Under the pieces are notes generated by a model that was given only the letters and a program-made list of their open reading frames with translations, was not told the origin of the DNA and did not search any database. The translations under genes and the position numbers were made by a program. Shown here one piece after another: positions 26,505 to 64,000 of a DNA stretch of 64,000 bases. The first letter of the stretch is position 1. Every line of letters starts with the position of its first letter. The DNA comes from Rhodospirillaceae bacterium MC! (GTDB lineage Bacteria; Pseudomonadota; Alphaproteobacteria; MC1), in contig NQOV01000011.1 in the NCBI GenBank assembly GCA_002632265.1, positions 102,566 to 166,565 on the forward strand, in the 5' to 3' direction.

Positions 26505-26524
26505 TTCTTTCATAGTTTTCCCTA

Positions 26525-26585
26525 ACACACACCTTACACCTTACATCCCCTTACACCTTACACCCCCTTACACCTTAAACATCCC
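26525..26585. repeat. C-rich short direct repeats between capsid and next gene
   Basis: Repeats of CACCTTACA and CCCCTTACA fill the gap after the capsid gene. Confidence 0.75.
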
Positions 26586-26624
26586 CATTATTAAACAATT
26601 ATTATTTATAAGGAATTTACCCCC

Positions 26625-26870: not shown

Positions 26871-26890
26871 AGTTCTTCACTAACACAAGA

Positions 26891-26920
26891 GCCATGATAA
26901 TCTTCACAAATTATCATGGC
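26891..26920 (+). other. Intergenic hairpin before tail tubular protein A
   Basis: GCCATGATAAT and ATTATCATGGC form a perfect 11-base stem with an 8-base loop. There is no T run, so it is more likely an RNA-processing or stability hairpin than a terminator. Confidence 0.7.
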
Positions 26921-26944
26921 TTGACATATGAAAGATATTAACAG

Positions 26945-27532
26945 ATGAACAATCTTACAAATCTCGATATTAACCCCGTATATTTATGTTCTCAAGCCTT
27001 AATCATGCTCGGAGCATTGCCCATTAATTCCTTTGATGAAGGAAGTGTAGAATCCGAAGTAGCCTCTACTTTGTTTGCTACCATTTATAACCGTCTCTTA
27101 AGTGCGTCCAATTGGAGCTTTAGCGAGGCCCAAGCTTGTTTGCAAAATCCCCAAGCAAGGGACATATCAGGAAAATATAGCTATAGCCTGCCCTATAATT
27201 TATTGCGTTTGCAATCGGTTGGCTATCACGATCCTAAAGAGAATCGCACAGATTACGAACTTGTGGGCAAATGGCTTAAGATCGATTCGCAAAAGGTTGC
27301 CATATCATACTTCGCTCGTGTGGATTGTAGCGATTTACCTGATTGGTTTATCTATACAGTGGTTACCACTTTAGCCAGCGAATTTTGCTTGCCAATTACA
27401 GGTAGTCCAAGCCGTACCAACGAACTCCGTGCCATCGCCCTTAAAGCCCTAGAAGACGCCAAATTACTCGACAAACGCCAAGAACCCAACAAATCCCTAG
27501 ATGCAGGTTACGAACTCATAGACGTACGTTAA
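26945..27532 (+). CDS. Tail tubular protein A (adaptor)
   Basis: The 195-residue protein matches T7 gp11-like adaptor proteins, which form the ring between portal and nozzle. Features are LCSQALIMLGALPINSFDEGS at the N-terminus, RLLSASNWSFSEAQACL around residue 55, the SYSLPYNLLRLQSVGY block, and LASEFCLPITGS followed by a long C-terminal helix. The length is typical. It is followed by the nozzle (tail tubular B-like) gene after 83 bases. Reading frame intact. Confidence 0.87.
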   Translation: MNNLTNLDINPVYLCSQALIMLGALPINSFDEGSVESEVASTLFATIYNRLLSASNWSFSEAQACLQNPQARDISGKYSYSLPYNLLRLQSVGYHDPKENRTDYELVGKWLKIDSQKVAISYFARVDCSDLPDWFIYTVVTTLASEFCLPITGSPSRTNELRAIALKALEDAKLLDKRQEPNKSLDAGYELIDVR

Positions 27533-27615
27533 ACTGCTGACTAAATACTTTTTTATTTTCTCACTTTCTCATTCTCACTTTCTCATAACATTTTAGATAT
27601 AAGGATATTATTATC

Positions 27616-29598
27616 ATGCCTAGATATTTTGAACAAAAAACATCTTTTAGTTCTGGTCAGGTTTCGCCCGATTTAATTGGTCGGAGTGGAATCAAAGCTC
27701 ACAATGAGGGCATGCTAGAATTGAAAAATGTCTATATTAAACCGTCAGGAGCAATTCAAAGACGATACGGAACATTTTTTGTCTCTAACTTTTCTTCCCA
27801 TGCTCGTTTAGTACCGTTTTCCATGGGTGGGATTCGTGGTTTAATCGGTATTACCATGGAAGGGCTTTGGATCAATGAAGAAAACGGTATTGTTGTAGAA
27901 TATGAAATGGATCATTTAAGCGAATTAGTAGTCGATCAGTTATCCATTACCTATAACGATAGTCGCATATATATTGCCAATCCGAATTCTCCTTTGATGT
28001 ACATTGAGTTTAACCCCATGTATCTTGACGCTAGCACCTTAAAAAAACGTTGGGTTTTTAAAGAGTTAGAGTTCGAAACACGTGGATTTCGCACATTAGA
28101 ACCCACACGCAAAGCCCCTAAAGGCACAACTCTTACCTTAAGCGATACCCAGACCATAGACTCCCAAAGCAAAGTTCCCATATATAAGATCACATCCAAC
28201 ACGCCATTTTTCATCTATCGTCATACCAACTCCAACACGTTCATATATTCTAAGGATGATTGTTCCTTTCAAATATATGAATATATTGATCCCTATACCG
28301 TTCACGCCTTGTTTCAAGGAGATCTTAAGGGTAAAACTAGTTTAAATGATACGGAGTGGGATTATTCGGCTTTTTCCAATGCTTACGGATATCCTGCAGT
28401 GGTGGGCTTTCATCAAGGACGCTTAGTCTTATCAGGCAATAGCGAAGCTTTATCCACAATATGGTTTTCAAAAAGTGGCAATCCTGAATCCTTTGATTAC
28501 GGTACAGGTTTAGACGATGAAGCTATCGATGTTAACCTTGCCGATGGGCAAATGAATATTGTGAAATCTTTAGTTTCATCCACTAATTTAATTGTCTTTA
28601 CCACTAATGGGGTTTGGTCGATTACAGGATCTCCGATTACGCCGACAAATACCAGTTATAGTCTACTCACAAGCATTCCTACCTTTTCTTCTGTTCAACC
28701 TTTGCAAATGGAAAACAGTTTTATTTATGTTGGTGGAGATTCGAATATTTATCAGCTAACGCCCTCTCTTGATGGTTTATTTAATGCTACTAATTTATCC
28801 TATGTCTGCGGAGATCTCATTAAGAATCCCCGAGATATGTGCTATGATTCAAGACATTCCTTATTACAAGTAGTTAATGAAGATGGAACTCTTGCGGTTA
28901 TGTCCTACTATAAGGATTCGCAAACGGTGGCTTGGTCCACATGGGAAACTAAAGGCAAATATTACGGCATAGCTAGGGTTAATGAAACAATGTATTATTG
29001 TATTATTCGCTCCATGGTTAATCTTGAAGTGGGAGGCGAGAATCTTAAGCTAGATTGCCTATGTTCGCCCTATTCCTTAAACGAGAATATGCCTGTTGTT
29101 CAAACATACATTAAGAAGATGTTAAGCCATAGCCAAAATTGGGAGATTCCCGTATATGAAACTGACTTTCAATATAATTCCTTAGGTTCGCTTAATCTCG
29201 ATTATTATAGCCCTGACGATAGCCAAAATGATTTACTCTACCAAGGTAAATATTTAGGCTTATCCTATGATGTCTCAATAAAACCCCTGCCCGTTTCTGG
29301 TGCAGTGGCTGGAGCAAGCGTTCAAGGGGGAAGATTAAGAGTAGTATCGGCGACCTTTAGATTACAAAATACTTCCCTTTTATCCATAGAAAAAGAGAAT
29401 AATAAAAGTTATAACGTCCCTTTAAATTATCTCGAAAAAAACCCCAATAGCCAAAACGTCGAATATAGCGGAGATGTGAAAGTCAGCTTACTTGGATGGA
29501 AAAAAGGTGCATATAAACCCTCATGGCACATCAAAATTAGCGAACCTACGAACTTCTGCCTAATATCAGTTAACACTAATATAATGGCTTCCAGTTAA
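27616..29598 (+). CDS. Tail tubular protein B-like / tail nozzle protein
   Basis: The 660-residue protein starts with the segment FSSGQVSPDLIGRSGI...LKNVYIKPSGAIQRRYGTFFV, a hallmark of podovirus nozzle or stabilisation proteins of the BPP-1 type. The middle contains TFIYSKDDCSFQIYEY, GYPAVVGFHQGRLVLSGNSEALSTIWFSKSGNPESFDYG, and beta-propeller-like blades (VWSITGSP, ENSFIYVGGDSNIYQLT), which are common in this family. Such proteins form the hollow nozzle below the adaptor ring. The frame is complete. The next gene, a fibre, starts 70 bases later after a good ribosome site. Confidence 0.85.
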   Translation: MPRYFEQKTSFSSGQVSPDLIGRSGIKAHNEGMLELKNVYIKPSGAIQRRYGTFFVSNFSSHARLVPFSMGGIRGLIGITMEGLWINEENGIVVEYEMDHLSELVVDQLSITYNDSRIYIANPNSPLMYIEFNPMYLDASTLKKRWVFKELEFETRGFRTLEPTRKAPKGTTLTLSDTQTIDSQSKVPIYKITSNTPFFIYRHTNSNTFIYSKDDCSFQIYEYIDPYTVHALFQGDLKGKTSLNDTEWDYSAFSNAYGYPAVVGFHQGRLVLSGNSEALSTIWFSKSGNPESFDYGTGLDDEAIDVNLADGQMNIVKSLVSSTNLIVFTTNGVWSITGSPITPTNTSYSLLTSIPTFSSVQPLQMENSFIYVGGDSNIYQLTPSLDGLFNATNLSYVCGDLIKNPRDMCYDSRHSLLQVVNEDGTLAVMSYYKDSQTVAWSTWETKGKYYGIARVNETMYYCIIRSMVNLEVGGENLKLDCLCSPYSLNENMPVVQTYIKKMLSHSQNWEIPVYETDFQYNSLGSLNLDYYSPDDSQNDLLYQGKYLGLSYDVSIKPLPVSGAVAGASVQGGRLRVVSATFRLQNTSLLSIEKENNKSYNVPLNYLEKNPNSQNVEYSGDVKVSLLGWKKGAYKPSWHIKISEPTNFCLISVNTNIMASS

Positions 29599-29668
29599 GA
29601 GCGTAACTCTCATCAATCATAAATCAATAAAACCAACAAAACCAACATTAATTTTTAGGAGAAATATT

Positions 29669-31009
29669 ATGAGCAACTATAATACAATGGTCAACGATGT
29701 ATTAAATGAATACAGTGTAAGCTATACAGCAGACGGGATTAATAATAACTTTTATTTTCCTTTCCATGAATTATATATGGATCACATTCAAGTATTTGTA
29801 AATTCTGTTTTGCAATATCCCTTTGATTCTCGAGCAGGATATTCGGTAAAAGCCCCTTATACGGTACAAGGGGGATTTATTACCTTTAACAATATCCCTA
29901 AAGCAGGCAGTAAAATTTTAATTTGCGAGAATGTAGCCTTTAAAAAGATTGTGAATTTCTTTGCCTCGTCATCTTTTACCGCAAAGGATCTGAATGCAGA
30001 GTTTGACAATATCTATAAAATTCTAGGAATCTTAAATGCCAACAGCATAAAAACCCTACGTATTTACAATAGCGATTCCGTTCAAGATCTAGCAGATTTA
30101 CAAGACGGCGTAATCATGAAAAATGGCAAAGACGTTATCACAAAAAACTTTGATGTAGATAACATAATGGCTAAATTAGACGACGTTTCCCATAAATACG
30201 ACGATATCAAAGTCCTATTAATTACCGCCTTTAATAAACTATCCTCTAGCGGTGGCGGGACTGTGATAAAAAATGCTCTAGTATCGCAAAACAACTTAAA
30301 CGATGTAATAGATATTAAAGAAGCTCGTAAAAATCTCGGTTTAGGCGATGTAGCCACCCTAAATCAAATAACATCCGCCCAAGTCGATGATTCCCTAGTA
30401 AAGCAAAATTTAGCCAACATATCAGATACCGCTTTAGCACGCCAGAATCTCGGCTTAAGCGATCTAGCCACAGTTTCCCAAGCGGATTTAATAGTGCTAA
30501 TAGACCAAAAGATAAACGACGGATTCACAGTCCCAGTCATATCCGTAGGTATTTATAGCGTCAATAAAGATATAGATATGAAAGTTGATCTACATTCCGA
30601 TAGTTACCAACAAATCCAAATCGCCAGCCATACCTTTCTTTCATCCCAACAAGATCTCCTATTCGTAGATGATAATAATTACTCCATGCACATAGGAGTA
30701 AGTGGCACATATACCATAAATGGCTTTATTAGTATGCACGGAGCTTATAACGTAGTAGCAAAAATAGAAGCAAGACAGCAATCAGATTCGGCTCTAGTAG
30801 ATAGTTTTGTCTCAAATCACATTAATTCCAACCTAAAATATTCAAGCCCAGGAGTCTGCATGTTCAACGAAATTCTTATAGTAAACGAACCCGTAACACT
30901 CCGCTTATTTCTAATGGGCGATAACTCTAAAAACAGTAGCCTAATGCTAGACTCTCCCCTAGACACCGACTATGTAGGTAAGTTCACCATCCAAAAAATT
31001 CTCAACTAG
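29669..31009 (+). CDS. Tail fibre protein with T7-fibre-like N-terminus
   Basis: The 446-residue protein begins with a particle-binding domain like that of T7 gp17 (residues 10-110: YTADGINNNFYFPFHELYMDHIQVFVN, then KAPYTVQGGFITFNNIPKAGSKILICENVAF and FTAKDLNAEFDNIYKIL). A coiled-coil-prone middle carries fibre repeats (ARKNLGLGDVATL, ARQNLGLSDLATV), and the last 150 residues look like a beta-sandwich tip of the C1q type. It would recognise the cell surface. Its presence, intact, argues that released particles still need to bind cells. The stop codon lies two bases before hairpin array B. Confidence 0.85.
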   Translation: MSNYNTMVNDVLNEYSVSYTADGINNNFYFPFHELYMDHIQVFVNSVLQYPFDSRAGYSVKAPYTVQGGFITFNNIPKAGSKILICENVAFKKIVNFFASSSFTAKDLNAEFDNIYKILGILNANSIKTLRIYNSDSVQDLADLQDGVIMKNGKDVITKNFDVDNIMAKLDDVSHKYDDIKVLLITAFNKLSSSGGGTVIKNALVSQNNLNDVIDIKEARKNLGLGDVATLNQITSAQVDDSLVKQNLANISDTALARQNLGLSDLATVSQADLIVLIDQKINDGFTVPVISVGIYSVNKDIDMKVDLHSDSYQQIQIASHTFLSSQQDLLFVDDNNYSMHIGVSGTYTINGFISMHGAYNVVAKIEARQQSDSALVDSFVSNHINSNLKYSSPGVCMFNEILIVNEPVTLRLFLMGDNSKNSSLMLDSPLDTDYVGKFTIQKILN

Positions 31010-31011
31010 TT

Positions 31012-31142
31012 AGGATTGTGATAAATGGGCTAATTAGGATTGTGATAAATGGGCTAATATGCACCTTAAACTAGGGCTTATGTAGACGTGAGTACACGTC
31101 GCCCTAGTTTAAGGCACATCTTATCCCATTTCTCCCAATCCT
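31012..31142 (+). repeat. Hairpin array B: short duplicated left end plus full type I unit
   Basis: A 23-base copy of the left arm (31012-31034) precedes a full unit (31036-31142) with inner arms CACCTTAAACTAGGGC and GCCCTAGTTTAAGG around TTATGTA and GACGTG-AGTA-CACGTC. The outer arms pair with few mismatches. Confidence 0.9.
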
Positions 31143-31144
31143 AA

Positions 31145-31290
31145 GGGATAGTGTTAAATAAGTTAGGGTGGATTTTGGATTGGGGCTTATGTAGACGTGA
31201 GTACACGGCGTACCGCTTACAGGCACATCTTAGCCCATTTCTCCCAATCCTAAGGGTTGCGGATTGGGATAAATGGGGTAATCTGTGTTT
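31145..31290 (+). repeat. Hairpin array B: chimeric unit and partial unit
   Basis: The unit at 31145-31251 has a type I left core (GGGGCTTATGTAGACGTGAG) but the type II right inner arm GTACCGCT, the reciprocal of the hybrid in array A. A partial left arm follows at 31257-31290. Confidence 0.8.
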
Positions 31291-31335
31291 TATGAATTAT
31301 AACTCAAGGAACTACTAAGGATAAAAGGAGGTTAA

Positions 31336-32844
31336 ATGTATTGTTTGAATTTTTATGATTTTATGTATGAGTGGTATGAACAACAAGATCTCTTGCCCAT
31401 ACCGCCACATCATAGTAAGATATCAGCATGGTTGGATGAAGATCTAAGCCATGCAAGGAAGTTACTCATGGCCTTTCGTGGAGCAGGTAAATCGACGGTG
31501 GTTGGTTTGTTTTGTGCTTGGTTGTTGGCAAGAGATCCCAATTGTCGGATTTTAATTATCGGAGCAGAGTTAAATTTAGCTAAGAAAATGCTTTCCAACA
31601 CAAAAAGAATCATAGAAAGTCATGAGGCTTGTCAGTTTTTAATTCCAGAAAAGAAAGAAATATGGTCCAATGAGCAAATTATAGTTAATCGTACAAAAGA
31701 ATGGAGAGATCCGTCATTACTGGCTCGTGGTGTTAGATCCAACATTACAGGCACAAGAGCCGAATGGATCATATGCGACGATGTGGAAGTGAAAACCACT
31801 TGCGATACTGCACGAAAAAGAGAGAATCTCCGAGATCTCTTAAGTGAGTGTGAATATATTCTCACACCAACAGGATCGCAATTATATGTTGGGACGCCCC
31901 ACACATCCCAATCCATATATGCCAACGAAAACACCGTATTATATGAAGAGAATCAACCCTTTTTATCTGGCTATAACCGTTTAGTAATTCCCCTAATTAA
32001 TGAGCATGGGAAAAGTGCATGGGAACGACATTTCAGCATGGAACGTATAAGCCAACTTCGTCAAGCCAACGGCGAGGCCAAGTTTAAAACTCAAATGCTA
32101 TTGCAATTCGTAGATTATAGCGAGGCTACTCTTAATTCATCCTTACTTGGTATTTATAATGAAGATCCACAAGTATATATTAGCAATAACGCTACAAATT
32201 ACACTTTATTTTCCCAGCAACTCATGGGGGTATCTTGCTGGTGGGATCCGTCTTTGGGCTTATCTGGGGGCGACGGTAGTGCGGTGGCGATTGTCTTCCA
32301 TGGGGAAAACGGAGCTAATTTCATTCATCGAGTCCATTACATATCCTTTAAAAAGGATGTTTCCAATTCTATCCAACATCAGATTATGGAAGTGGGGAGC
32401 TTAATAAGTCAATATCGTTTACCGTCCATTCACATAGAGCAAAATGGAGTTGGCGGATTCATACCGTCTTTATTGCGTGAACATTTGGCTAAATTGGGAA
32501 TTGCTTGCTCGGTGGTGGCGGTTCATAACACTAAGAATAAACAAGAAAGGATAATCTCAAATATGGGCGAGCGTTTATATGCAGGTAAGATATTTATTCA
32601 TGAACATCTACAAAAAAGCCGATTTATGGAAGAGATCCAAATGTGGAACATGAAAGATAAATACGCCAAAGACGACGGACTCGACGCCGTATCAGGATGT
32701 TTAAGCTTAGCCCCCATGCCTTCACAAGTATCTAAGACCATGAGCAAAGATAAAAATGGTTTCATTGCCCCCAAAAAAACCTACAAAAGCACCCAAGCCC
32801 ATAACTCTCAAGTCATCGCCCCCACCAATTTTACCCCCCTTTAG
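31336..32844 (+). CDS. Terminase large subunit (T7 gp19-like packaging ATPase/nuclease)
   Basis: The 502-residue motor protein has the Walker A-type motif AFRGAGKST near residue 49, the Walker B region EWIICDDVEVKTTCDT near residue 145, and a C-terminal nuclease part with acidic residues (SCWWDPSLGLSGGDGSAVAI around residue 305; HIEQNGVGG; KDDGLDAVSG near the end). It would pump DNA into procapsids through the portal and cut it. The strong ribosome site AAAGGAGG supports the ATG at 31336. No small terminase gene is recognisable, as often happens because these are poorly conserved. The last 40 codons are strongly C-biased. The frame is intact. Confidence 0.88.
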   Translation: MYCLNFYDFMYEWYEQQDLLPIPPHHSKISAWLDEDLSHARKLLMAFRGAGKSTVVGLFCAWLLARDPNCRILIIGAELNLAKKMLSNTKRIIESHEACQFLIPEKKEIWSNEQIIVNRTKEWRDPSLLARGVRSNITGTRAEWIICDDVEVKTTCDTARKRENLRDLLSECEYILTPTGSQLYVGTPHTSQSIYANENTVLYEENQPFLSGYNRLVIPLINEHGKSAWERHFSMERISQLRQANGEAKFKTQMLLQFVDYSEATLNSSLLGIYNEDPQVYISNNATNYTLFSQQLMGVSCWWDPSLGLSGGDGSAVAIVFHGENGANFIHRVHYISFKKDVSNSIQHQIMEVGSLISQYRLPSIHIEQNGVGGFIPSLLREHLAKLGIACSVVAVHNTKNKQERIISNMGERLYAGKIFIHEHLQKSRFMEEIQMWNMKDKYAKDDGLDAVSGCLSLAPMPSQVSKTMSKDKNGFIAPKKTYKSTQAHNSQVIAPTNFTPL

Positions 32845-32923
32845 GATTGCTAAAATTCTCTAAGATGTGGATATGCTTGAAAGTATGTGCTTGAGTATGA
32901 TCTTGAGTATGCTCTTTAGTAAG

Positions 32924-33601
32924 TTATTTTGAGTTTTTCTGGTAGGCTTGATCCATATGTTCTTGACAGTAAGGCGAATCAGAAATAGACGGCTCGCCAC
33001 AGAAATGGAATTCGTAATCATCAGGATCGCCGATGGGCCAGTGGCACTGGCTGGATTTTATGTTATGTAATTGAATTCCTTTGCGTTTTTCTTTGATCTT
33101 CTGGCTTTTCTTAAAGGCTTGGATGTCAATGGACACATGAATCTTAGATTTATCACGTGGTTTATTTTCGATTATCTCAAGTTCATGTTGTGGAAGACTA
33201 TCCATTAACATGGATTGTATATTCTTACTTTCAGCAAAGGATTTCTTTTTTGGCGGACGTGGAACGATATCAGGATGTTCAGTTTTATGATGATGTTCTT
33301 TTTTAGCCTTTTCGACAATTTTAGGCTCTTCTTTGGGCGGTTGTTGTTCTTTTTCCTTTTCCTTTTCCTTTTCTTTAGGAGCGGATTTCTTAGGGCTTTG
33401 TGATTCTTTAGCACTAGGAGGATTCTTAGATGAAAGCTGACGTTTAGTTAAATTCAAGCGGTGGACTTTACCCACGACCGAATTTTTAGTAACGCCTAAA
33501 AGTTCGCCAATTTCTACAGTTGGTAAACCTTGCGACCAAAGTTTTTTCAGTTGTTCAACACGTTCGGAAGTCCAAGTATTATTAGGGGGAAGAGCTGTCA
33601 T
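32924..33601 (-). CDS. gcrA: GcrA-family cell cycle regulator
   Basis: GcrA binds RNA polymerase holoenzyme and methylated GANTC promoters to control S-phase genes in alphaproteobacteria. The 225-residue protein has the N-terminal DNA-binding part WTSERVEQLKKLWSQGLPTVEIGELLGVTKNSVVGKVHRL, a long Lys/Glu/Pro-rich linker, and the C-terminal sigma-interacting part with CHWPIGDPDDYEFHFCGEPSISDSPYCQEH. Length and ends are typical; the linker has KEKEKE repeats. It lies on the opposite strand between the terminase and the internal-protein gene, which is an unusual place for an essential regulator. Confidence 0.93.
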   Translation of the reverse strand: MTALPPNNTWTSERVEQLKKLWSQGLPTVEIGELLGVTKNSVVGKVHRLNLTKRQLSSKNPPSAKESQSPKKSAPKEKEKEKEKEQQPPKEEPKIVEKAKKEHHHKTEHPDIVPRPPKKKSFAESKNIQSMLMDSLPQHELEIIENKPRDKSKIHVSIDIQAFKKSQKIKEKRKGIQLHNIKSSQCHWPIGDPDDYEFHFCGEPSISDSPYCQEHMDQAYQKNSK

Positions 33602-33855
33602 TCGTACATTGCCTTATGCTAAGTGTGAAAATAAGTGTGATATATATTATATCATAAAAAAAGACTATCACAAGCCTTTTTTTGTGTTTTTTATCTTTTT
33701 TCCTAAGGCATTGAGTTTTTAGATCTTTAACCAATAGATATTCAAGGAGTATGTAATATGTAATATCTCATTTTAATGGCTGGATTGTTGCCATTTTTAT
33801 CCACTACCAACAATCATTTTTATTAATTTTTCCAAAAAGTACAGGAGAATATATT

Positions 33856-34368
33856 ATGGCTGATTTTTTTTCAAGTTTTAGTTCAGGTTTAGGAAACGCC
33901 CTAAGTGGTGCTTTAGCAGGTCTGATAGTTAACACACTCACAGACAAAAACGACAACAAAAAACAAGCAAAAGATTATTATCAGGAACGACGAGACCAAG
34001 AAAAACGTCAAGAGAAACGCCAAGCAGAATTGCGTCAGTTTGTCGACCGAGCTAATCTCGCACAAGATAATTTATTAACAAGCATTAATAAATCCAACGA
34101 TCTACTAGAACGCAAGTACGATCAAACACGCAAGGAGAATCTAGATAGTTCCAAAAAACGTCTAGCCACTATCCGAGCTTATGCAGGTCTGCACGGTACA
34201 GCAGGAACAAACGCCATTCGCAACCAGTTGGAAAACGTTCAAGACCAAAACAACGACAAGATCTCCGATCTTAAATATAACATTAAACATCAAATAGACG
34301 CCAACGCCGACAAGTTTAAAAGCTTCATGGCCAATCAGAAGTTAGATTATAAAGGACTGCTTCTGTAA
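33856..34368 (+). CDS. Putative internal virion / DNA-ejection protein
   Basis: The 170-residue protein has a small glycine- and alanine-rich hydrophobic N-terminus (SGLGNALSGALAGLIVNTL) followed by long charged helices with coiled-coil character (YYQERRDQEKRQEKRQAELRQF; LLERKYDQTRKENLDSS) and a conserved-looking IRAYAGLHGTAGTNAIRNQ. This resembles the short internal core proteins of podoviruses that line the portal and help eject DNA, such as those near gp14-gp15 of T7. The assignment rests on architecture and position next to the terminase. The ribosome site is AGGAG. It is the last phage-type gene on the right; gcrA lies between it and the terminase. Confidence 0.6.
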   Translation: MADFFSSFSSGLGNALSGALAGLIVNTLTDKNDNKKQAKDYYQERRDQEKRQEKRQAELRQFVDRANLAQDNLLTSINKSNDLLERKYDQTRKENLDSSKKRLATIRAYAGLHGTAGTNAIRNQLENVQDQNNDKISDLKYNIKHQIDANADKFKSFMANQKLDYKGLLL

Positions 34369-34375
34369 AAAGTAG

Positions 34376-34440
34376 CGTAAAAAAGCACTTACTTCCGTCT
34401 CTTTTATCCTGCGTCCTTAAGTGGGGCTTATGTAAACCTG
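34376..34440 (+). repeat. Decayed half hairpin element after the internal-protein gene
   Basis: AAAAAAGCACTTAC, GCGTCCTTAAG and GGGGCTTATGTAAAC follow in the same order as the left half of the hairpin at 56588-56698, ending in the TTATGTA core; the right half is missing. Confidence 0.6.
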
Positions 34441-50046: not shown

Positions 50047-50313
50047 ATGGAAACCGATAAAACACTATCATCCACCGAATTATCAAAAAACAAAGAAGAA
50101 GACCACGCAGTAATTCACGCAAGAATGGTAGTAATTTTTAGAAAAGTAATGCTATGTTTCGCCATAGTAATAATCCTAATTACCGCCCTTTTCGTCTATT
50201 TCGCCAACCTCACCCTATACATTTCCCTAGCCCTATTCGCCTTTTCCCTATTTCTACCCGCTTTTATCTATAAAATTAGCATAGGGACAATCCGCACCTA
50301 CCCCCTAGACTAA
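50047..50313 (+). CDS. Small two-helix membrane protein
   Basis: The start at 50047 is preferred over an in-frame ATG at 50032 because GAAAGG lies seven bases before it. The 88-residue protein has a charged N-terminal half (SSTELSKNKEEDHAVIHARM) and two membrane helices (MLCFAIVIILITALFVYFA; LYISLALFAFSLFLPAFIY). I do not recognise the family. It begins about 85 bases after the winged-helix regulator. Two bases after its stop the hairpin array C begins. Confidence 0.55.
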   Translation: METDKTLSSTELSKNKEEDHAVIHARMVVIFRKVMLCFAIVIILITALFVYFANLTLYISLALFAFSLFLPAFIYKISIGTIRTYPLD

Positions 50314-50315: not shown

Positions 50316-50422
50316 AGGATTGGGAGAAATGGGCTAATCTGCACCTTAAACTAGGGCTTATGTAGACGTGAGTACACGTCGCCCTAGTTTAAGGTGCAGA
50401 TTAGCCCATTTCTCCCAATCCT
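50316..50422 (+). repeat. Hairpin element, perfect 42-bp arms, type I core (array C, unit 1)
   Basis: This is the best preserved unit. The first 42 bases and last 42 bases are exact reverse complements. The central 23 bases are TTATGTA (unpaired on the left side only) followed by GACGTG-AGTA-CACGTC, a 6-base stem with a 4-base loop. It begins three bases after the upstream stop codon. Confidence 0.97.
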
Positions 50423-50423
50423 G

Positions 50424-50580
50424 CGGATTGTGATAATTGGGCTGATCTGTACCTTACTTTAGGGCTTATGTAGACGTGAGTACACGTCGCCCTAAGTTAA
50501 GGCACATCTTAGCCCATTTCTCCCAATCCTAAGGCTTGCGGATTGTGATGAGTGGGCTAATCTGCACTTTAAACTAGGGT
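50424..50580 (+). repeat. Hairpin elements, type I core and a partial unit (array C, units 2-3)
   Basis: Unit 2 (50424-50530) has the same core, with inner arms TACCTTACTTTAGGGC and GCCCTAAGTTAAGG and slightly mismatched outer arms. The partial unit (50538-50580) ends within the left inner arm at TTAAACTAGGGT. Confidence 0.93.
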
Positions 50581-52747: not shown

Positions 52748-52864
52748 TATATTTAGTTGCTAGGAAATGAGTTAGATTTAAACTAGTATCCCATGGATAA
52801 AGGCTTTGAAATTTATATTCTAGCAAATGATATTTAAACCAAACTAATTTATTTGAGAATTATT

Positions 52865-54397
52865 ATGAGAAATATATATAAGACATCCCTTACAGCTTTA
52901 GCCCTAACAACCTTATTAATGGGTTGTAGCGAAAAAGCTCAAGAGAATAAGAATGTTACAATCGCAATCGATAGTACAACTACCACTTTAGATCCGCAAA
53001 ATGCAACCGTAGGTAATGATATGTCCATTGCTCGTAGTGCTTACGAATCACTATTTGCTTTCAATTCGGATATGAAAGTAATACCCCAATTAGCTACAGA
53101 TTACAAGATCAACGATAACGCCGATGTATATACAATTAATTTACATCCAAATATTAAATTTACTGACGGCTCTCCATTTAACGCCACCGCAGTAAAAGCC
53201 AACTTCGATAGAGAGTTAACACATCAATTAAAACGCTCTAATGTGGTTAGTAATGTGAAAAGTGTAGAAGTTGTTAGTGATCTAGTTGTGGCTATTCATT
53301 TAAAGTCGCCATCAACAACATTTATAAATTCCTTAGCACACGTTTCGCAAGTTATGGAAAGTCCTAAATTATTAACTCATGATGATACATATATCAGAAG
53401 TCATCCAGTGGGTACAGGGAGATTTATTTTCAAATCGTGGGAAAACGGTTCTAAAATTGTCTTTACAAAAAATCCAAACTATTGGGGCGAAGATAAAGCA
53501 GAAGTTGATTCTATTACCTTTAAGCCAGTCCCAGAAAATGGTGCGAGAGTATCGATGTTGAAATCAGGTCAAGCACAAGTTATTTATCCGCTTCCAGTTG
53601 AAACCATGGATACAATCAAAAAAGATGAGAAACTATCAACCATAGCCGTACCGTCTATCATGATTCGCTATTTTGCCATGAATACACACGTGAAACCATT
53701 TTCCGACGTACGAGTACGCCAAGCCTTAAACTATGCCTTTGATAAAACATCATATATTAAAGTAGTTTATAATGGTCATGCAAAACCTATGCAATCAGTA
53801 TTGCCAACAAAAATCGAGGGTTTCAAAGCTCAAGCACCATATTCATATAATGTGGATAAAGCAAAAGCCCTATTGAAAAAAGCAGGCTACGCAAATGGTT
53901 TCAAAACTACCATATGGTCTAAAGATGACACCCGCTCAATGAACGGTGCACAATTCTTACAACAGCAATTAAGCATGCTAAACATTAAAGCCGACATCTC
54001 TCCTATGGATTCATCTTCCCATTATGCTCGTGCAAGAGGATTAAAGAACAAGCCAGAACAAAATGTAATTATTCAAGCAGCTTGGTCAGCCTCTTCAGCT
54101 ACTGCCGATTGGTCAATCCGTCCGTTATTATATTCCGATCCAGCCCAAGCAACAGCAAACTTCTCTTTATACAATAATCCTAGTATTGATACTCAATTAA
54201 TCACAGGCTTAAAAACAGTAGACAAAGATAAGAAAACAGATATATACAACAACATCCAAAAAACCCTATGGCAAGACGCCCCTTGGATATTTGGTGCTAC
54301 AGATACATCTTACCTAGCTAAATCTAAGAACCTATCAGGCGTTAGCTTGCTACCTGATAATACACTAGTTATCGGTGCAGTAAAATACACCAAGTAA
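52865..54397 (+). CDS. gsiB: Glutathione/peptide-binding lipoprotein of the Gsi importer
   Basis: This 510-residue family 5 binding protein has a lipoprotein signal ending LLMGC (cysteine near residue 22), unlike E. coli GsiB, which is a soluble periplasmic protein. Family features are TTTLDPQNATVGNDMSIARSAYESLFAF, NADVYTINLHPNIKFTDGSPFNATAVKANFDRE, MNTHVKPFSDVRVRQALNYAFDKTSYI around residue 280 and LLKKAGYANGF. The ATG at 52865 is preferred over an upstream in-frame TTG. Its stop is adjacent to hairpin array D, which separates it from gsiC. Glutathione is the family ligand, but other gamma-glutamyl or short peptides are possible. Confidence 0.87.
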   Translation: MRNIYKTSLTALALTTLLMGCSEKAQENKNVTIAIDSTTTTLDPQNATVGNDMSIARSAYESLFAFNSDMKVIPQLATDYKINDNADVYTINLHPNIKFTDGSPFNATAVKANFDRELTHQLKRSNVVSNVKSVEVVSDLVVAIHLKSPSTTFINSLAHVSQVMESPKLLTHDDTYIRSHPVGTGRFIFKSWENGSKIVFTKNPNYWGEDKAEVDSITFKPVPENGARVSMLKSGQAQVIYPLPVETMDTIKKDEKLSTIAVPSIMIRYFAMNTHVKPFSDVRVRQALNYAFDKTSYIKVVYNGHAKPMQSVLPTKIEGFKAQAPYSYNVDKAKALLKKAGYANGFKTTIWSKDDTRSMNGAQFLQQQLSMLNIKADISPMDSSSHYARARGLKNKPEQNVIIQAAWSASSATADWSIRPLLYSDPAQATANFSLYNNPSIDTQLITGLKTVDKDKKTDIYNNIQKTLWQDAPWIFGATDTSYLAKSKNLSGVSLLPDNTLVIGAVKYTK

Positions 54398-54505
54398 TTA
54401 GGGATGTGAAAAATAGCTATTAGGCACTTAAAATAGGGCTAAAGTAAACAAGAGTACATGTCGCCCCATTTAAAGCACCTACTAACTATTTTTCCCTATC
54501 CCTAA
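54398..54505 (+). repeat. Hairpin element with diverged arms and core (array D, unit 1)
   Basis: Outer arms TTAGGGATGTGAAAAATAG and CTATTTTTCCCTATCCCTAA pair, and inner arms GCACTTAAAATAGGGC and GCCCCATTTAAAGC pair with mismatches. The core keeps the GTA...AGTACATG pattern (TAAAGTAAAC, GAGTACATGTC). Arms differ at most positions from array C, but the shape is the same. Confidence 0.85.
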
Positions 54506-54508
54506 GTG

Positions 54509-54632
54509 TTGGGATGTGAAAAATAGTTTAGACACTTAAAATAGGGCAACATGTTTACCTTAGCCCCATTTAAAGCACCTACTAACTATTTTTCCTTATC
54601 TCTAAGTGTTGGGGTGTGGAAAACAGGCATTA
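54509..54632 (+). repeat. Hairpin element with inverted core and a partial unit (array D, units 2-3)
   Basis: Unit 2 (54509-54605) has the same arms as unit 1, but the core CAACATGTTTACCTTAGCC is the reverse complement orientation of the GGCTAAAGTAAACA type core of unit 1. A partial left arm follows at 54609-54632. Confidence 0.8.
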
Positions 54633-55739: not shown

Positions 55740-56588
55740 ATGGAAAACAAACAAATATCCCCTTTTACTCTCTTTTTATTGCGATTCAAAAAGCAAAAGC
55801 CTGCCATATTAGCCTTAATTATCCTTTTGCTCATTTTAGCTATCGCCATATTTGCCCCACTCTTAGCCCCTTACGATTATACAACTCCCAACTATAGCAA
55901 CAGATTATTAAGCCCGTCATTTAGCCATTTTGCAGGCACAGATAATACAGGAAGAGATGTTTTTAGTCGCCTATTATTCGGAGCGAGAGTCTCTCTAAGT
56001 ATCGGCTTTATTTCCGTAACCATGGGTATGGTAGTGGGAACAGTCTTAGGGATAATAGCAGGATTCGTCGGAGGGGTCTTCGATAGTATAGTCATGCGTA
56101 TAGCCGATGTTCTCTTCGCCTTTCCCAGTATCTTACTAGCTATAGGCATTGTCGCAGTGTTAGGACAAGGAATCGTAAACGTGATTCTTGCCATAGCCAT
56201 ATTTAGCTCGCCAGTATTTGCAAGAATCGTCCGTGGTAGTACTCTAGCCATTCGCAACACCCAATACATAAAAGCCGCCGAAACCATGGGAGCAAGCAAA
56301 AGACGTATTATGTTCATTCATATTTTCCCAGGAACAATAAGTAGTATCTTAGTATATTTTACCATGAGAATCGGCACATCAATCCTAACAGCCGCAGGTC
56401 TAAGCTACCTAGGTTTAGGAGCAAAAGAACCATCACCAGAATGGGGAGCAATGCTCGCCTCCGGCCGTGATCTCATGTATGGCCACCCCTATTTAACCAT
56501 ATTCCCCGGTATCGCCATATTTATAACCGTCCTATCATTTAACATCCTAGGCGATGGTCTCCGCTCCGCCCTAGACCCCAAAGATTAA
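55740..56588 (+). CDS. gsiD: Glutathione-type ABC importer permease GsiD
   Basis: This 282-residue partner permease of GsiC has a basic N-terminus before the first helix, DNTGRDVFSRLLFGARVSLSIGFISVTMG near residue 63, the EAA loop AIRNTQYIKAAETMGASKRRIMFIHIFPGTISSILVYF and the closing LSYLGLGAKEPSPEWGAMLASGRDLM and FNILGDGLRSALDPKD, all family-typical. The ribosome site AGAAAGGATTACTT precedes the ATG. The last codons run into hairpin E, whose left arm starts at the stop codon. Confidence 0.93.
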   Translation: MENKQISPFTLFLLRFKKQKPAILALIILLLILAIAIFAPLLAPYDYTTPNYSNRLLSPSFSHFAGTDNTGRDVFSRLLFGARVSLSIGFISVTMGMVVGTVLGIIAGFVGGVFDSIVMRIADVLFAFPSILLAIGIVAVLGQGIVNVILAIAIFSSPVFARIVRGSTLAIRNTQYIKAAETMGASKRRIMFIHIFPGTISSILVYFTMRIGTSILTAAGLSYLGLGAKEPSPEWGAMLASGRDLMYGHPYLTIFPGIAIFITVLSFNILGDGLRSALDPKD

Positions 56589-56698
56589 AGGGCTGGGAAA
56601 AAGCACTCATTCAGCGTCCTTAAGCCATGCTTATGTAGGCGTGTAGTACACGACGCATGTCTTAAGGACGCTGACTAAGCACTTTTTCCCAGCCCTTA
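56588..56698 (+). repeat. Hairpin element, diverged arms, conserved bulge (locus E)
   Basis: Arms of 43 bases (AAGGGCTGGGAAAAAGCACT... and ...AAGCACTTTTTCCCAGCCCTT, with CAGCGTCCTTAAG/CTTAAGGACGCTG inside) pair with few mismatches. The core is TTATGTA followed by GGCGTGT-AGT-ACACGAC. Arm sequence is almost unrelated to array C yet the bulge is identical. A partial core copy (GGGCTTGTGTAGGTGTG) follows at about 56703-56720. Confidence 0.95.
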
Positions 56699-59896: not shown

Positions 59897-60538
59897 TTAG
59901 TGAGATAGGTCGTAAGCTTCTTTGGCTTTTTTCTTGATAGAGTCGAAGTCTTTATTTTTTTCTTCGTCGGCTGTTACTAACCAAGTACCACCACAACATA
60001 GTACATTAGGTTGGCTTAGATAGTCTTTAAGGTTATGGGTTTTAACTCCGCCTGTAGGACAGAATTTAATAGAAGATAGAGGACCATTAATTCCTTTTAG
60101 AACGTTAATACCGCCTGCAGCTTCAGCAGGGAAGAATTTTAGGAAGTCGTAACCGATAGATTTAGCTACAATTACTTCAGATGCAGTAACACAACCAGGT
60201 AAGAATGGTAAATCGATTTTTTTAGCGTGTTCTAGCAGTTCCACTGTACCACCTGGGCTTACGGCGAAATCTAGATTTAAGCTTTTTAGTTTATCCAGCT
60301 CTTCGGTAGTTGTAACAGTACCAGCACCTACGATACTTGTTGGGATTGCTTTTTTAATTGCTACCATAGCGTCCCATGCTTCAGGTGTTCTTAATGTGAT
60401 TTCTAGCACATTTAAGCCACCATCTACCAATGCTTGAGCGATACCTACAGCAGTTTCAACATTATTTAATGCTAATACAGGTACAACTTTTGCACTTAGG
60501 CAACTTTTTTTCATATCTTCAAATTTTTGACTAATCAT
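59897..60538 (-). CDS. eda: 2-keto-3-deoxy-6-phosphogluconate (KDPG) aldolase
   Basis: Eda cleaves KDPG to pyruvate and glyceraldehyde-3-phosphate, the last step of the Entner-Doudoroff route. The 213-residue protein has PVLALNNVETAVGIAQALVDGGLNVLEITLRTP (with the conserved E of EITLRT), VGAGTVTTTEELDK, PGCVTASEV and the Schiff-base lysine in LKFFPAEAAGG near residue 133. It is last in the minus-strand operon lyase-kdgF-kdgK-eda. Two hairpins lie between it and kdgK. It directs carbon to glyceraldehyde-3-phosphate, which GapN, encoded elsewhere in the window, could oxidise. Confidence 0.95.
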   Translation of the reverse strand: MISQKFEDMKKSCLSAKVVPVLALNNVETAVGIAQALVDGGLNVLEITLRTPEAWDAMVAIKKAIPTSIVGAGTVTTTEELDKLKSLNLDFAVSPGGTVELLEHAKKIDLPFLPGCVTASEVIVAKSIGYDFLKFFPAEAAGGINVLKGINGPLSSIKFCPTGGVKTHNLKDYLSQPNVLCCGGTWLVTADEEKNKDFDSIKKKAKEAYDLSH

Positions 60539-60570
60539 AATAGATCCTTATATATTATTGTGTGTGTTAC

Positions 60571-60645
60571 TGATCTCATGAATTGGAATTCGTGAGATCA
60601 ATTATTATTTGTCATGTTGGCATGCTTTAATTATAAGCATGCCAA
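60571..60645 (-). other. Two hairpins between kdgK and eda
   Basis: TGATCTCATGAATT/AATTCGTGAGATCA (60571-60600, 2-base loop) and TTGGCATGCTT/AAGCATGCCAA (60617-60645) lie in the intercistronic gap. Such hairpins often tune the amount of downstream gene or mark a processing site. Confidence 0.75.
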
Positions 60646-60684
60646 ACTTACCTTATGCCCCATACGGTTGTATGGTTAATATGG

Positions 60685-61617
60685 TTAAAATTTCGGCATA
60701 ACGTCTTTATTGATTAAAGCACCCTTATGTAGAATTACAGTACTAGCAAGCTTGTGAGCTTGTTGGATTGATTCATGGGGAGTCTTACCGTCTAATCTAC
60801 CTGCTAGATAACCACCAGCAAAAGAATCGCCTGCGGCAGTTGTGTCTACTACCTTGTCGATTTTGCTTAGAGTAACTTCTTCTACTTTACCGTTTAAGCA
60901 ATATGTTACTAATCCGCCACCGTTTTTAATAACAATTTCTTCTACGCCAACGCCTTTATAGTAGTTAATGCAATCGGCATTGGTTTTAAATTCAGGCATT
61001 AGAATTTGTTCATCATCAAAGCTAGGCATAACTGTTGTAGCTATTGAAGTGAATCTTTTATAACATTCGCTTGCATGCTTTGGAGATTTCCAACCTGCTT
61101 TACGGTAGTTATTATCAATGATGATTTTACCGCCGTTTGCTTTGTATGTTGTTAAAAATTCGTGGAATTTATTTAAGGCTTGTTCCGAATATAAAGATAA
61201 GGTAATAAGAGAGAAATAAATATTATCAAATTTAGCTAATTTTTTGAAGTAATCTTCAGCACCGTCGAATTCAAATAATCTACGAGCAGGCGATTGACTA
61301 CGCCAAAATTCAAATGTACGTTCGCCTGTATCGTCGTTAGTTATGATATATAACCCAGGTAATTCGTTATCAATGCGTTTTACTAGGGATGTATCTACAT
61401 TTTCATCATTCCATAGATCTAACATTTTTTGACTGTACATATCTTGCCCTAAAGCTGTAGCATATGATACTTTTCCGCCTAAACGTGCTAAATATACTGA
61501 TGTGTTTAAGGTATCCCCACCAAATGATAGTTGATAATGGGGTAAACCATTTTCGCTATTACAGTCTACGGATGCGAGTTCAATCATACACTCGCCAATG
61601 CTAGCAATACTTTGCAT
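60685..61617 (-). CDS. kdgK: 2-keto-3-deoxygluconate kinase
   Basis: This PfkB-family sugar kinase phosphorylates 2-keto-3-deoxygluconate (KDG). The 310-residue protein has SIGECMIEL at the N-terminus (KdgK style), GGDTLNTSVYLARLG, IIIDNNYRKAGWKS near residue 160, VVKNGGG-like VIKNGGGLVTY and the ATP-binding and catalytic DTTAAGDSFAGGYLAG near residue 260. It is third in the uronate operon, after the KdgF-type cupin. Gene context and motifs agree on KDG as substrate. Confidence 0.92.
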   Translation of the reverse strand: MQSIASIGECMIELASVDCNSENGLPHYQLSFGGDTLNTSVYLARLGGKVSYATALGQDMYSQKMLDLWNDENVDTSLVKRIDNELPGLYIITNDDTGERTFEFWRSQSPARRLFEFDGAEDYFKKLAKFDNIYFSLITLSLYSEQALNKFHEFLTTYKANGGKIIIDNNYRKAGWKSPKHASECYKRFTSIATTVMPSFDDEQILMPEFKTNADCINYYKGVGVEEIVIKNGGGLVTYCLNGKVEEVTLSKIDKVVDTTAAGDSFAGGYLAGRLDGKTPHESIQQAHKLASTVILHKGALINKDVMPKF

Positions 61618-61716
61618 AGTGTTATCCTTGTTGTTAAGGTTAGTTCTTGTTTGTTTTTTTTATTAATTATAAAGTTGTGAAAAGAGAATAACTCTCTACA
61701 TTCCAACACCACTATT

Positions 61717-61750
61717 AAAGAGTGGGAAAAAGTGCTTTTTCACGCTCTTT
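61717..61750 (-). repeat. Coreless mini-hairpin after kdgF
   Basis: On the minus strand, one base after the kdgF stop, AAAGAGCGTGAAAAAGCAC pairs with TTTTTCCCACTCTTT-type sequence. The outer arm pieces GAAAAAGCAC and CTTTTTCCCA match the arms of hairpin E, so this looks like a small derivative without the core. Confidence 0.6.
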
Positions 61751-61751
61751 A

Positions 61752-62081
61752 TTATAAAAAGTCATCTCTTCTAGGATTGAACATATCAATTAAAGTACCA
61801 GCTTCTAAGCATACAGCACCGTGAAGTAGATCTTTAGGAGCGATGAAAGCGTCGCCTGCTTTAAGGATTACTTTTTTACCGTCCACTTCTGCTTCAAACT
61901 TGCCCGATTGTACGTAACCGATTTGATCGTGAATGTCGTGAATGTGAGCAGTACCGATTGCTCCTTTTTCGAATTTTACTTCGCAAGCCATTAAGCCTTC
62001 TGTATGACCAATAATTTTACGTTTAATACCGTCGCCTAGATCGTTGTATTCTACGTCATCTGCAATGAAAAAATGTTTCAT
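61752..62081 (-). CDS. kdgF: KdgF-type cupin (unsaturated uronate cyclisation)
   Basis: KdgF speeds the ring opening of 4,5-unsaturated uronates released by pectate or alginate lyases to the linear keto form used next. The 109-residue cupin has the metal-binding HIHDIHDQIGYVQSGKFEAEVDGKKVILKAGDAFIAPKDLLHGAVCLE. The start is placed at the methionine of MKHFF because AAGGAAG precedes it by seven bases; the longer frame upstream has no ribosome site. It lies between the lyase and kdgK, and a coreless hairpin begins one base after its stop. Confidence 0.85.
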   Translation of the reverse strand: MKHFFIADDVEYNDLGDGIKRKIIGHTEGLMACEVKFEKGAIGTAHIHDIHDQIGYVQSGKFEAEVDGKKVILKAGDAFIAPKDLLHGAVCLEAGTLIDMFNPRRDDFL

Positions 62082-62170
62082 GTTGTGTCTTCCTTGTTGT
62101 TTTATATTGTGTATAATATTGTGTGTAATGTTTTGTCTTATCATATACTACGTATATTGTTAACGTATGA

Positions 62171-62216
62171 ATTATACAACATAATATTTTATATGTCAAT
62201 ATTAATGTTGTATAAT
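62171..62216. promoter_or_regulatory. Dyad operator between the lyase and kdgF genes
   Basis: ATTATACAACAT (62171-62182) and ATGTTGTATAAT (62205-62216) are exact inverted repeats with centres 34 bases apart, about three helical turns. TACGTAT-like palindromes flank them. A GntR-type uronate repressor site is the likeliest reading, given the neighbouring genes. No regulator gene is in the window. Confidence 0.65.
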
Positions 62217-62259
62217 TTTATTTATTTGTCATACGTATTATACGGGCGTATTATATGGG

Positions 62260-62366
62260 GTGTACAAAAGATTTTAGTATGCACCTTAAAATTATGGCTA
62301 ATCTAAGCAATGACTAATCTTAAGGCAGATTTTGCAATCTTTTTTTACAATCTTTTTCCACCCTTT
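62260..62366 (-). repeat. Decayed hairpin element after the lyase gene
   Basis: On the minus strand, just after the lyase stop, AAAGGGTGGAAAAAG resembles the left outer arm of the family, and TGCCTTAAG...TTAAGGTGCA form an inner stem around a loop with a direct repeat of GATTAG. The conserved core is not recognisable. Confidence 0.5.
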
Positions 62367-62370
62367 ATTA

Positions 62371-64000
62371 TTAGGATTGATGTTTTATGATCTTATGGCT
62401 ACCTTGCCAAGAGAAATGCTGATTTTTTTCCGAGATGATACTATGTTGAGTATTATCATCCACATTATCGATGTTACTAACCATAACAGTATATCTAACG
62501 CCTGATTTTAATCTAATACATACGATAGTACCTTGTTCATTTGTTGCTAACATGTGAGTAATATCGATCTTAGAGAAAGAATTTTGAGCCACTTCTTGAG
62601 CTTCATCGAACATACCATGACTTTCTAAAACACTGGCGAAAGCGTGAGTTTTACCTGTTTGTCTTAGGATAATGTAAGGTTCTGGACGTAAATGATCTTC
62701 AGGGTCATTAGCTCCGATAGTTCCGTATATTACTTTAGTGTTGTTGGTAACAGATGAATTGATAGAGTAGAATCTACCCTCATGTAACCATGTATAACCA
62801 AAGTTCACACGTGGATCGCCTGTACCTTCACGCCATAAATGTTGATAGCCAAAGCCGTCGCCCGCTGGAGTAAGTTGAGTATTAGACGCAGCTTTAGGGA
62901 AATTATATTCCACCGCTTGACCTAGATAATGAAATGGTAAATCGTATGTGTGATTTGCTTTAGAGATGATTTTAAAGATATCAATTAAAATCGGATGTTC
63001 AAACTCTTCGTAATCTTCAAATAAGATTACAGATCTCTGCATATCGCAACCGTCAGCATATTCGCTAGTTTTCGCACTCATTAATTGAGCTTTAGGATCT
63101 GACGTGTTAAAGATATGACATTTACCGTCGTGCTTTTCGGCGGTTCTACCGTTGGCGAAGTGATGTGTGGCTTTATCAACAACGATTGTATTATGTGCTA
63201 CTGTATGTTTGGCATAACTAAAGTTTTCAGGTGCATAAGTACCCTCATACTTTTGAGTTAGATTCGCCCATCTTGCACAGCCGTAATCTGTTAAGACGCT
63301 ACTATCATTCATGTTAACCATGATAGATAAGCCGTCATAGTGTCCATGTTCTCGCATACCGTGAGTACCGTAACTCATTAGCACACGATATTCTTTGCCA
63401 TTGCCGTCTTTAGAGCGTAAAACGCCGATAGCTCCAGCAGTTCCGCTTTTCCCTGCTTTGATCTCACAACTTTCAGGAGCTTTATATTCTAAGCATTTAC
63501 CTTTAGTTTTAAGATCTTCTAAAGCATTCGAAATATTAAGACCTGCAATATTGATCATAACTTCATCTTGTTTTTGTGCGATCCATAATAGTTTATCATC
63601 AGCACCATAACGACAGTAAATTAATGCAGTGGCATATAAGAAACCCACACACGGGCCACCAACTTCATAGATAGATGTTGATCTATAAGCATCATTTAAG
63701 CTTGGTAGTTGACCGTCGTTTAAAACCATATCCATCATAGAATATAATGTTTTCTTGATGATTTGATCTCTGTATTCAAAGATCTTGTAATCAGGGCAAT
63801 GACGCTCTAAAGCTTCAGCAAATAAATACATAGGCCATAGGGCGAATCTTAGATAGTAAGGACCTTCTTCATAGTAGCCATCTGGCGATAATAGATTGTC
63901 AAGTTGTGCTCTAAATCCACCTGTTTTACTATCAAGTTTTAGTCCTTTTACAGCTTTTTCCACATAATCATCCTTACCCATGATGATCCCTGCAATACCA
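62371..64000 (-). CDS. Heparinase II/III-like polysaccharide lyase (alginate/uronate type), 5' end outside window
   Basis: At least 543 residues are visible; the frame stays open to the window edge upstream of the first in-window ATG at 63981, so the true start lies outside. The alpha-toroid N-terminal part carries DGYYEEGPYYLRFALWPMYLFAEAL, and the beta-sandwich part carries HGMREHGHYDGLSIMVNMNDSSVLTDYG and HTVAHNTIVVDKATHHF, the family's catalytic His/Tyr neighbourhood. Architecture resembles PL17/PL15 oligoalginate lyases. With KdgF, KdgK and Eda downstream it would release unsaturated uronates that flow into the KDG pathway. Alginate is the most likely substrate; other uronate glycans are possible. 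Confidence 0.82.
   Translation of the reverse strand, partial: GIAGIIMGKDDYVEKAVKGLKLDSKTGGFRAQLDNLLSPDGYYEEGPYYLRFALWPMYLFAEALERHCPDYKIFEYRDQIIKKTLYSMMDMVLNDGQLPSLNDAYRSTSIYEVGGPCVGFLYATALIYCRYGADDKLLWIAQKQDEVMINIAGLNISNALEDLKTKGKCLEYKAPESCEIKAGKSGTAGAIGVLRSKDGNGKEYRVLMSYGTHGMREHGHYDGLSIMVNMNDSSVLTDYGCARWANLTQKYEGTYAPENFSYAKHTVAHNTIVVDKATHHFANGRTAEKHDGKCHIFNTSDPKAQLMSAKTSEYADGCDMQRSVILFEDYEEFEHPILIDIFKIISKANHTYDLPFHYLGQAVEYNFPKAASNTQLTPAGDGFGYQHLWREGTGDPRVNFGYTWLHEGRFYSINSSVTNNTKVIYGTIGANDPEDHLRPEPYIILRQTGKTHAFASVLESHGMFDEAQEVAQNSFSKIDITHMLATNEQGTIVCIRLKSGVRYTVMVSNIDNVDDNTQHSIISEKNQHFSWQGSHKIIKHQS

Follow-up and report, generated by a model that had tools for sequence, protein, structure and literature searches.

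The Correia element (CREE/NEMIS) resembles the repeat family described here in being a dispersed, long imperfect hairpin with a short form of 104-108 bp, and perhaps also in its conserved directional core; its mobilising mechanism was left undetermined (PMC2649163). It also has a form of 153-157 bp, whereas the units of the present family measure 107-110 nt, and it carries 26-bp terminal repeats (TATAGTG...CACTATA), to which the arms in four carrier genomes (G000, the genome that holds the stretch analysed, G197, G094 and G344) are unrelated. Correia elements have a TA target, which is duplicated; TA often flanks the units of G000 but not those of G197. Tandem arrays are formed by the present family and were seen in none of the Correia elements examined. 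Correia elements are located mostly upstream of genes (PMC10969869), and their RNA is a substrate of RNase III.

REP/BIME sequences are likewise palindromic, present in many copies and for the most part located 3' of genes, in many cases no more than 15-20 nt from the stop codon. In E. coli they lower translation when they lie at most 15 nt from the stop (PMC12306157), and REPs can supply the stop codon (PMC3733652). They are however 20-60 nt long, tagged by GTAG or CGTC and mostly arranged as inverted dimers, and their GTAG families are tied to a Y1 transposase, whereas the units here are 107-110 nt long and head-to-tail, with no Y1 gene in five of the six carriers. The RPE of Rickettsia, also alphaproteobacterial long hairpins (105-146 bp; PMC2229807), are known to be inserted in frame within genes, whereas the present family lies at stop codons behind intact upstream proteins; the two were set apart by their descriptions. 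ERIC and YPAL, of Yersinia and enterobacteria, are palindromes of 127 and 168 bp, co-transcribed and with an orientation-dependent effect on upstream mRNA stability (PMC2229807), but they have no known shared core with the family, occur in other hosts and are not arrays anchored to stops. The CIR of Caulobacter is an alphaproteobacterial repeat of about 110 bp with RNA structure (PMC2229807); it has two arms and GANTC motifs, whereas the family here is a single hairpin without conserved GANTC. Effects on RNA have been published for REP, ERIC and Correia repeats (PMC12306157, PMC2229807, PMC2649163, PMC10969869). A relation to attC sites was considered and dropped, as cassettes are absent and conservation falls on the tip instead of on end boxes. 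The sequence-only reading of this DNA knew of no described family with this design, which is right of the element as a whole. Its core and length, however, are like those of the Correia element (104-108 bp; PMC2649163), and its placement resembles that of REPs (PMC3733652, PMC12306157).

The whole stretch of DNA analysed, 64 kb, is referred to below as the window, and its coordinates are used unless a contig is named. D-type denotes a second arm subfamily, whose type copy lies at 56588-56697 and which occupies at least 40 places in the genome. The copies in the window are as follows.

25044-25151, plus strand: unit 1 of an array, hybrid core (B-type left, A-type right); its first bases complete the TAG stop of prophage ORF 24416-25045
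25160-25266, plus strand: unit 2 (covariance model)
25268-25375, plus strand: unit 3, B-type core (covariance model)
25376-25448, plus strand: coreless hairpin closing the array (read from the sequence)
31010-31033, plus strand: truncated left half, immediately 3' of the TAG of ORF 29669-31009 (sequence)
31036-31142, plus strand: unit 1, the top-scoring copy of the genome (covariance model, 129.9 bits)
31145-31251, plus strand: unit 2, recombinant arms (covariance model)
31254-31292, plus strand: truncated left half closing the array (sequence)
34369-34438, plus strand: truncated D-type left half after ORF 33856-34368 (read from the sequence)
50316-50422, plus strand: unit 1 of an array, perfect 42-bp arms; starts 2 nt past the TAA (50311-50313) of the 88-aa ORF 50047-50313
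50424-50530, plus strand: unit 2, core as in unit 1, imperfect arms (covariance model, 113.9 bits)
50532-50580, plus strand: third unit, truncated left half (read; BLAST 86% over 43 nt to C18:153105-153147)
54400-54503, plus strand: unit 1, diverged core GTAAACAAGAGTACATG; 2 nt past the TAA of solute-binding protein ORF 52853-54397
54511-54602, plus strand: unit 2, decayed core (covariance model, 29.7 bits)
56588-56697, plus strand: single D-type unit, beginning at the TAA of permease ORF 55740-56588 (covariance model)
61714-61751, minus strand: coreless D-type hairpin, immediately after minus-strand ORF 61752-62144 (read from the sequence)
62257-62354, strand not assigned: weak decayed copy by the 3' end of ORF 62371-63981 (covariance model, 22.4 bits)

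The description that had been given of 50316-50422 was found to be exact: 42-base arms that are perfect reverse complements (50316-50357 and 50381-50422), the sequence TTATGTA after the left arm, then a GACGTG-AGTA-CACGTC tip. The related units that had been proposed were recovered by the covariance model with E-values from 2e-30 to 7e-5 (25044-25375, 31036-31251, 50424-50530, 54400-54602 and 56588-56697). Among the suggested decayed or coreless copies, those at 34376 and 61717 could be read in the sequence and that at 62260 was recovered weakly (22 bits, E = 0.005), while those at 20461 and 45560 gave no model match. Two of the arrays lie between genes of a prophage-like block (21635-34368, with portal-, capsid-, tail- and terminase-like ORFs), and the elements therefore entered or spread after prophage integration. 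The 54400 array is followed by a permease ORF at 54808, co-directional with the solute-binding protein ORF. At 59897-63981 lies a row of KDPG aldolase-, sugar kinase-, cupin- and polysaccharide-lyase-like ORFs, possibly for uronate use, some with coreless or decayed hairpins at their 3' ends. A 24-bp perfect hairpin at 15651-15730, with convergent ORFs on either side, gave a weak false match to the covariance model and is probably a bidirectional intrinsic terminator.

The unit at 50316-50422 is an atypical copy, with perfect arms amid a family whose arms are imperfect. Set against the family consensus, it has the outer right-arm sequence in its left arm and the inner left-arm sequence in its right arm. 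Because ordinary copies are predicted to fold far less stably (-25 to -60 kcal/mol, against -88.9 kcal/mol for this unit), its perfect arms look like the product of a single, recent hairpin-templated mismatch correction of a quasi-palindrome.

The ordinary unit is about 107 nt long. Its outer helix leads through an internal loop, in which GCAC often faces GCAC, to an inner helix of 10-14 bp that varies freely in sequence while staying paired; above this come an asymmetric loop, with UUA opposite CGNC, and a near-invariant tip UGUA(C)...(G)UACA, with a closing pair that varies from C-G to U-A; the family core is CTTATGTAC-N5-GTACACGGCG. The GCAC facing GCAC beneath the inner helix is common to G000 and G197, despite wholly different helix sequences. 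In one G197 subfamily AAUAC/GUAUU stands in place of the UGUA/UACA tip, and GTAG is found ahead of the tip in A- and D-type copies of G000 only, the other carriers being without it. Covariance model R1 was built from 29 copies of G000. The GUA/UAC tip pairing is present in 29/29 rows and the GACGTG/CACGTC pairing in 18-29/29 rows per pair. The latter is a second, mutually exclusive pairing of the tip, found in the A and C subfamilies of G000. The conserved asymmetric core proposed earlier stands; the GACGTG/CACGTC tip does not hold in some subfamilies.

Covariation was evaluated on three sets of copies. In the R1 copies of G000, two-sided changes were observed in 20 of 35 pairs. With R2, a shorter model built from G000, G197 and G094, the inner helix showed two-sided changes in 13 of 15 pairs, 91.6% of its cells being paired, compared with 28-48% on sliding, and neither the paired fraction nor the covariation score observed in these three genomes was reached in any of 500 shuffles. 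In an alignment of 54 rows from six genomes, which was fitted to the model, 18 of 20 pairs were changed on both sides, and the paired cells amounted to 88.7%, compared with 33-50% in the slid controls. The claim that the arms differ between copies yet remain self-complementary is borne out by these counts, and in the alignments the structure is conserved across carriers, with an invariant tip and a strongly covarying stem. The arms would stay paired by selection together with hairpin-templated mismatch correction, although pairing could also persist via correction at the DNA level without any RNA function.

Copies are not limited to the window, BLAST and covariance matches being found throughout the genome (2.05 Mb, alphaproteobacterial). 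A BLAST search of this genome with the 50316 unit gave at least 154 matches among those listed, both strands counted, and at least about 99 arrays of 1-6 head-to-tail units were enumerated by collapsing R1 and D-type matches by hand (at least 150 R1 candidates) in a draft assembly of 19 contigs with simple ORF calls. The tandem period is 107-117 bp and a truncated left half often ends the array; the tandem units would arise through local duplication. The family is not a named Rfam family: the window gave no Rfam match above the gathering threshold, and in related loci only neighbouring tmRNA and SRP RNA were matched, not the element.

In BLAST the 50316 unit had no match in 40 other alphaproteobacteria (same-class relatives only), nor among phages and plasmids, and the exact core TTATGTAGACGTGAGTACAYG was absent from the GTDB genomes and viral contigs scanned, which may omit the window's own genome. 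The covariance search of related alphaproteobacteria that had been suggested alongside that of the genome extended the family to 4-5 further alphaproteobacterial genomes of 1.3-1.7 Mb. R1 gave matches in G197 and G267 over 289 members of the class, and R2 gave 26 copies in G197, 15 in G344, 5 in G094, 4 in G267 and 1 in G150 (marginal score, full hairpin), with no copy in about 380 other alphaproteobacteria. The pattern TTATGTAN{6,12}TACACGNCG, searched in 385 genomes, was matched 57 times in G000 and six times in G197 (always forward), and elsewhere gave only single matches, at the level of the reversed-pattern control. Those of G107 and G178 were treated as chance, given weak inner helices and control-level counts. 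A non-alphaproteobacterial covariance match, in G522, was the sole addition from a phylum-wide sample and was rejected as a perfect hairpin without the asymmetric loop. In G344 (L112, L115, L132-L134, L136), near-identical copies abut a prepilin leader-like sequence on the opposite strand (RSMVEMLGVLAII), to which they perhaps contribute leader codons.

The G267 locus L125 was compared with the same-genus genome G171, in which both sides of query 1473-1617 were aligned and 145 nt were missing, the adjacent bases being 85083/85084. The element lies within these 145 nt, absent from G171 at the orthologous stop. The upstream gene ends with TAA in all four relatives, and a plain intrinsic terminator is found there in G047 and G344. 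At this one site, the alignment speaks for the element having been gained immediately 3' of a stop codon.

Arrays of G000 are placed at stop codons, with the core in sense orientation. In 53 of 64 arrays (52 counted arrays plus the 50316 array, behind the 88-aa ORF ending at 50313) the start lies between -25 and +15 nt from the stop of the upstream same-strand ORF, and 32 of the 64 begin within -2 to +3, while stretches up to 15 nt from a stop make up only 7% of the 3'-intergenic sequence. The stop bases are supplied by the element itself in the -1, -2 and -10 cases. Forty upstream proteins were found to cover all functional classes, including those of intact housekeeping genes (release factor, LepA, PriA, adenylate kinase, LeuA), and to be complete wherever Pfam reports completeness; natural gene ends are therefore involved, and not truncated genes. 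Copies in G197, G094 and G267 are likewise often located at stops in sense orientation. Non-coding genes can carry the element too, since one G197 copy (L090) lies 3' of tmRNA, in sense orientation. A U-tract follows the hairpin in 2 of 35 array regions in a simple scan that is too insensitive to decide, and canonical terminators are present elsewhere in the window.

Arrays also show a co-directional, leading-strand bias. The strand of the elements is nearly uniform on each contig (C7, 19/19 minus; C2, 9/9 plus; C11, 14/15 minus; C19, 7/8 plus). As a general rule, not derived from this species, the leading strand is the one of positive GC skew. Four contigs have a clear GC skew, and on these the G-rich strand carries 49 of 51 arrays. 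When third-codon-position skew, corrected for gene direction, was used to define the leading strand, and thus independently of the elements, arrays were found after 32 of the 400 genes on that strand and 3 of the 261 on the lagging strand (P=5e-5). An earlier version of this test (34/401 vs 1/260) was dropped as circular, the leading strand having been set from the elements themselves. In G197, all 26 copies are on one strand, in a region with a skew of +0.2 (gene strand alone, P=2e-8); they are confined to C2:555k-989k and C1:30-75k, about half of the genome, and three sampled stretches of the remainder have a skew of 0 to 0.1 and no copies. On C18, the contig of the window, GC skew is near zero and the strand claim thus rests on the other contigs. 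The element strand switches there from minus to plus between C18:101,980 and 127,609 (window 1-25043), so that with the near-zero skew a replication origin or terminus may lie in this interval. In a search for an origin at the switch, DnaA boxes were not clearly enriched; dut and ubiE-like genes are located near it.

The search for a Y1/RAYT gene that had been suggested was negative in five of the six carriers: Y1_Tnp (PF01797) is absent from G000, G197, G094, G344 and G267, in which positive controls were found, while the sixth carrier, G150, has one such gene. Because five carriers are without the transposase, the family was not assigned to the REP/RAYT elements.

A pattern scan of viral contigs led to provirus contigs with Correia-type elements (L209, L210, L223, L246, L253, L293, L295 and L309), which BLAST placed in Neisseriaceae (74% over 107 nt with Neisseria gonorrhoeae, 81% with Conchiformibius). 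Most of the 118 viral-contig pattern matches are probably due to chance, and only the Correia-type ones hold up. The Correia-type centre, for example CAACGCCC-TTATGTACCACGCGTACACGAC-GGGCGTTG (or CAACGCCC-TTATGTAC-CACGC-GTACACGAC-GGGCGTTG), has an inner helix, asymmetric loop and tip as in the G000 elements, and the Neisseriaceae copies hold the family core within the same asymmetric loop; the core is common to these copies and diverged in N. gonorrhoeae. In Conchiformibius the element is in sense orientation and overlaps a nuclease gene's stop codon. Twenty-four gonococcal Correia elements showed no placement at stop codons and agreement of strand with skew in a ratio of only 15:9, and a shared core may therefore not mean shared behaviour. 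These likenesses suggest that the family and the Correia elements are of the same kind, perhaps with a shared recognition core.

Taken with the features that go beyond the sequence-only reading (stop-codon placement, sense and leading-strand orientation, occurrence in other alphaproteobacteria and a core common to Correia-type elements), these data lead us to favour, with a probability of about 0.5, the reading that these hairpin repeats are non-autonomous and form a new REP/Correia-like family, whose copies enter with replication polarity and persist at the 3' ends of mRNAs. Spreading would occur while the sense strand is the single-stranded lagging-strand template, through a trans-acting factor that would recognise the hairpin tip. 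Insertions would be retained mainly at gene 3' ends because the hairpin of the sense transcript then sits against the stop codon, where it could hold up exonucleases that act from the 3' end or serve as an RNase III substrate, and could slow terminating ribosomes. By analogy with E. coli REPs and with Correia and ERIC RNAs, a probable role of the hairpin is control over the stability of mRNA ends or over the termination of translation.

Sense orientation, the exact distance to the stop, a tip that is invariant across families while the stem covaries, and arrays between co-directional genes such as those for the binding protein and permease (54398-54602) would also fit a cis-acting 3'-UTR RNA under selection and no longer mobile, a tip-recognised terminator or protector of mRNA ends that spread long ago and was kept by its function. 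This alternative is serious but rather unlikely, as presence is patchy within families, a same-genus presence/absence pair exists, a general RNA device would not predict near-absence after lagging-strand genes, and U-tracts follow only 2 of 35 arrays, in the insensitive scan. The elements would be still less probably a remote branch of the Neisseria Correia/NEMIS MITEs moved by the same factor. The 104-108 bp length, the tip and asymmetric loop, the sense copy over the Conchiformibius stop codon and the fact that the two best covariance matches among 80 pattern-bearing viral contigs were both Correia-type speak for such a descent; yet these matches are modest (E 0.001-0.03) at loci picked by the same sequence pattern, the TATAGTG repeat and, in G197, the TA flank are missing, and gonococcal copies are not at stops and are described as mostly upstream of genes (PMC10969869).

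Mobilisation by a RAYT (Y1 HUH) transposase as REP/BIME proper, with which the hairpin, the position near stops, the GTAG before the tip in A-type copies and a replication polarity as in single-strand transposition would agree, is largely refuted by the five carriers without Y1_Tnp, and units of 107 nt and not 20-60, head-to-tail and not inverted, with GTAG missing from the other carriers, leave it very improbable. Strong strand polarity and the restriction of G197 copies to one region would also suit a replication or segregation signal, with polar sites like KOPS or Chi for which gene ends were merely a safe place; this too is a very poor candidate, since random placement would not give more than 80% of arrays within 15-25 nt of stops and carriers have anything from 1 copy to well over 100.

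Beyond the favoured reading of a new REP/Correia-like family, a wider one is possible, although we advance it tentatively and think it somewhat doubtful. There may be a superfamily of small mobile hairpins in Alphaproteobacteria and Neisseriales, Correia elements included, defined by the tip UUAUGUAC/GUACACGNCG and read by a common mobilising factor; in alphaproteobacteria its members would insert with replication polarity at gene ends and would now serve as a 3'-end RNA device. The presence of the same tip in a second, distant bacterial group gives a comparative handle on the mover of Correia elements, among the proteins of carriers that are missing from close non-carriers. The arrays, with 1-6 tandem units at a fixed distance from the stop, form a natural series for testing the action of hairpins on mRNA and ribosomes, and the family joins three subjects that are usually kept separate, namely palindromic repeats, mRNA 3' ends and replication polarity.
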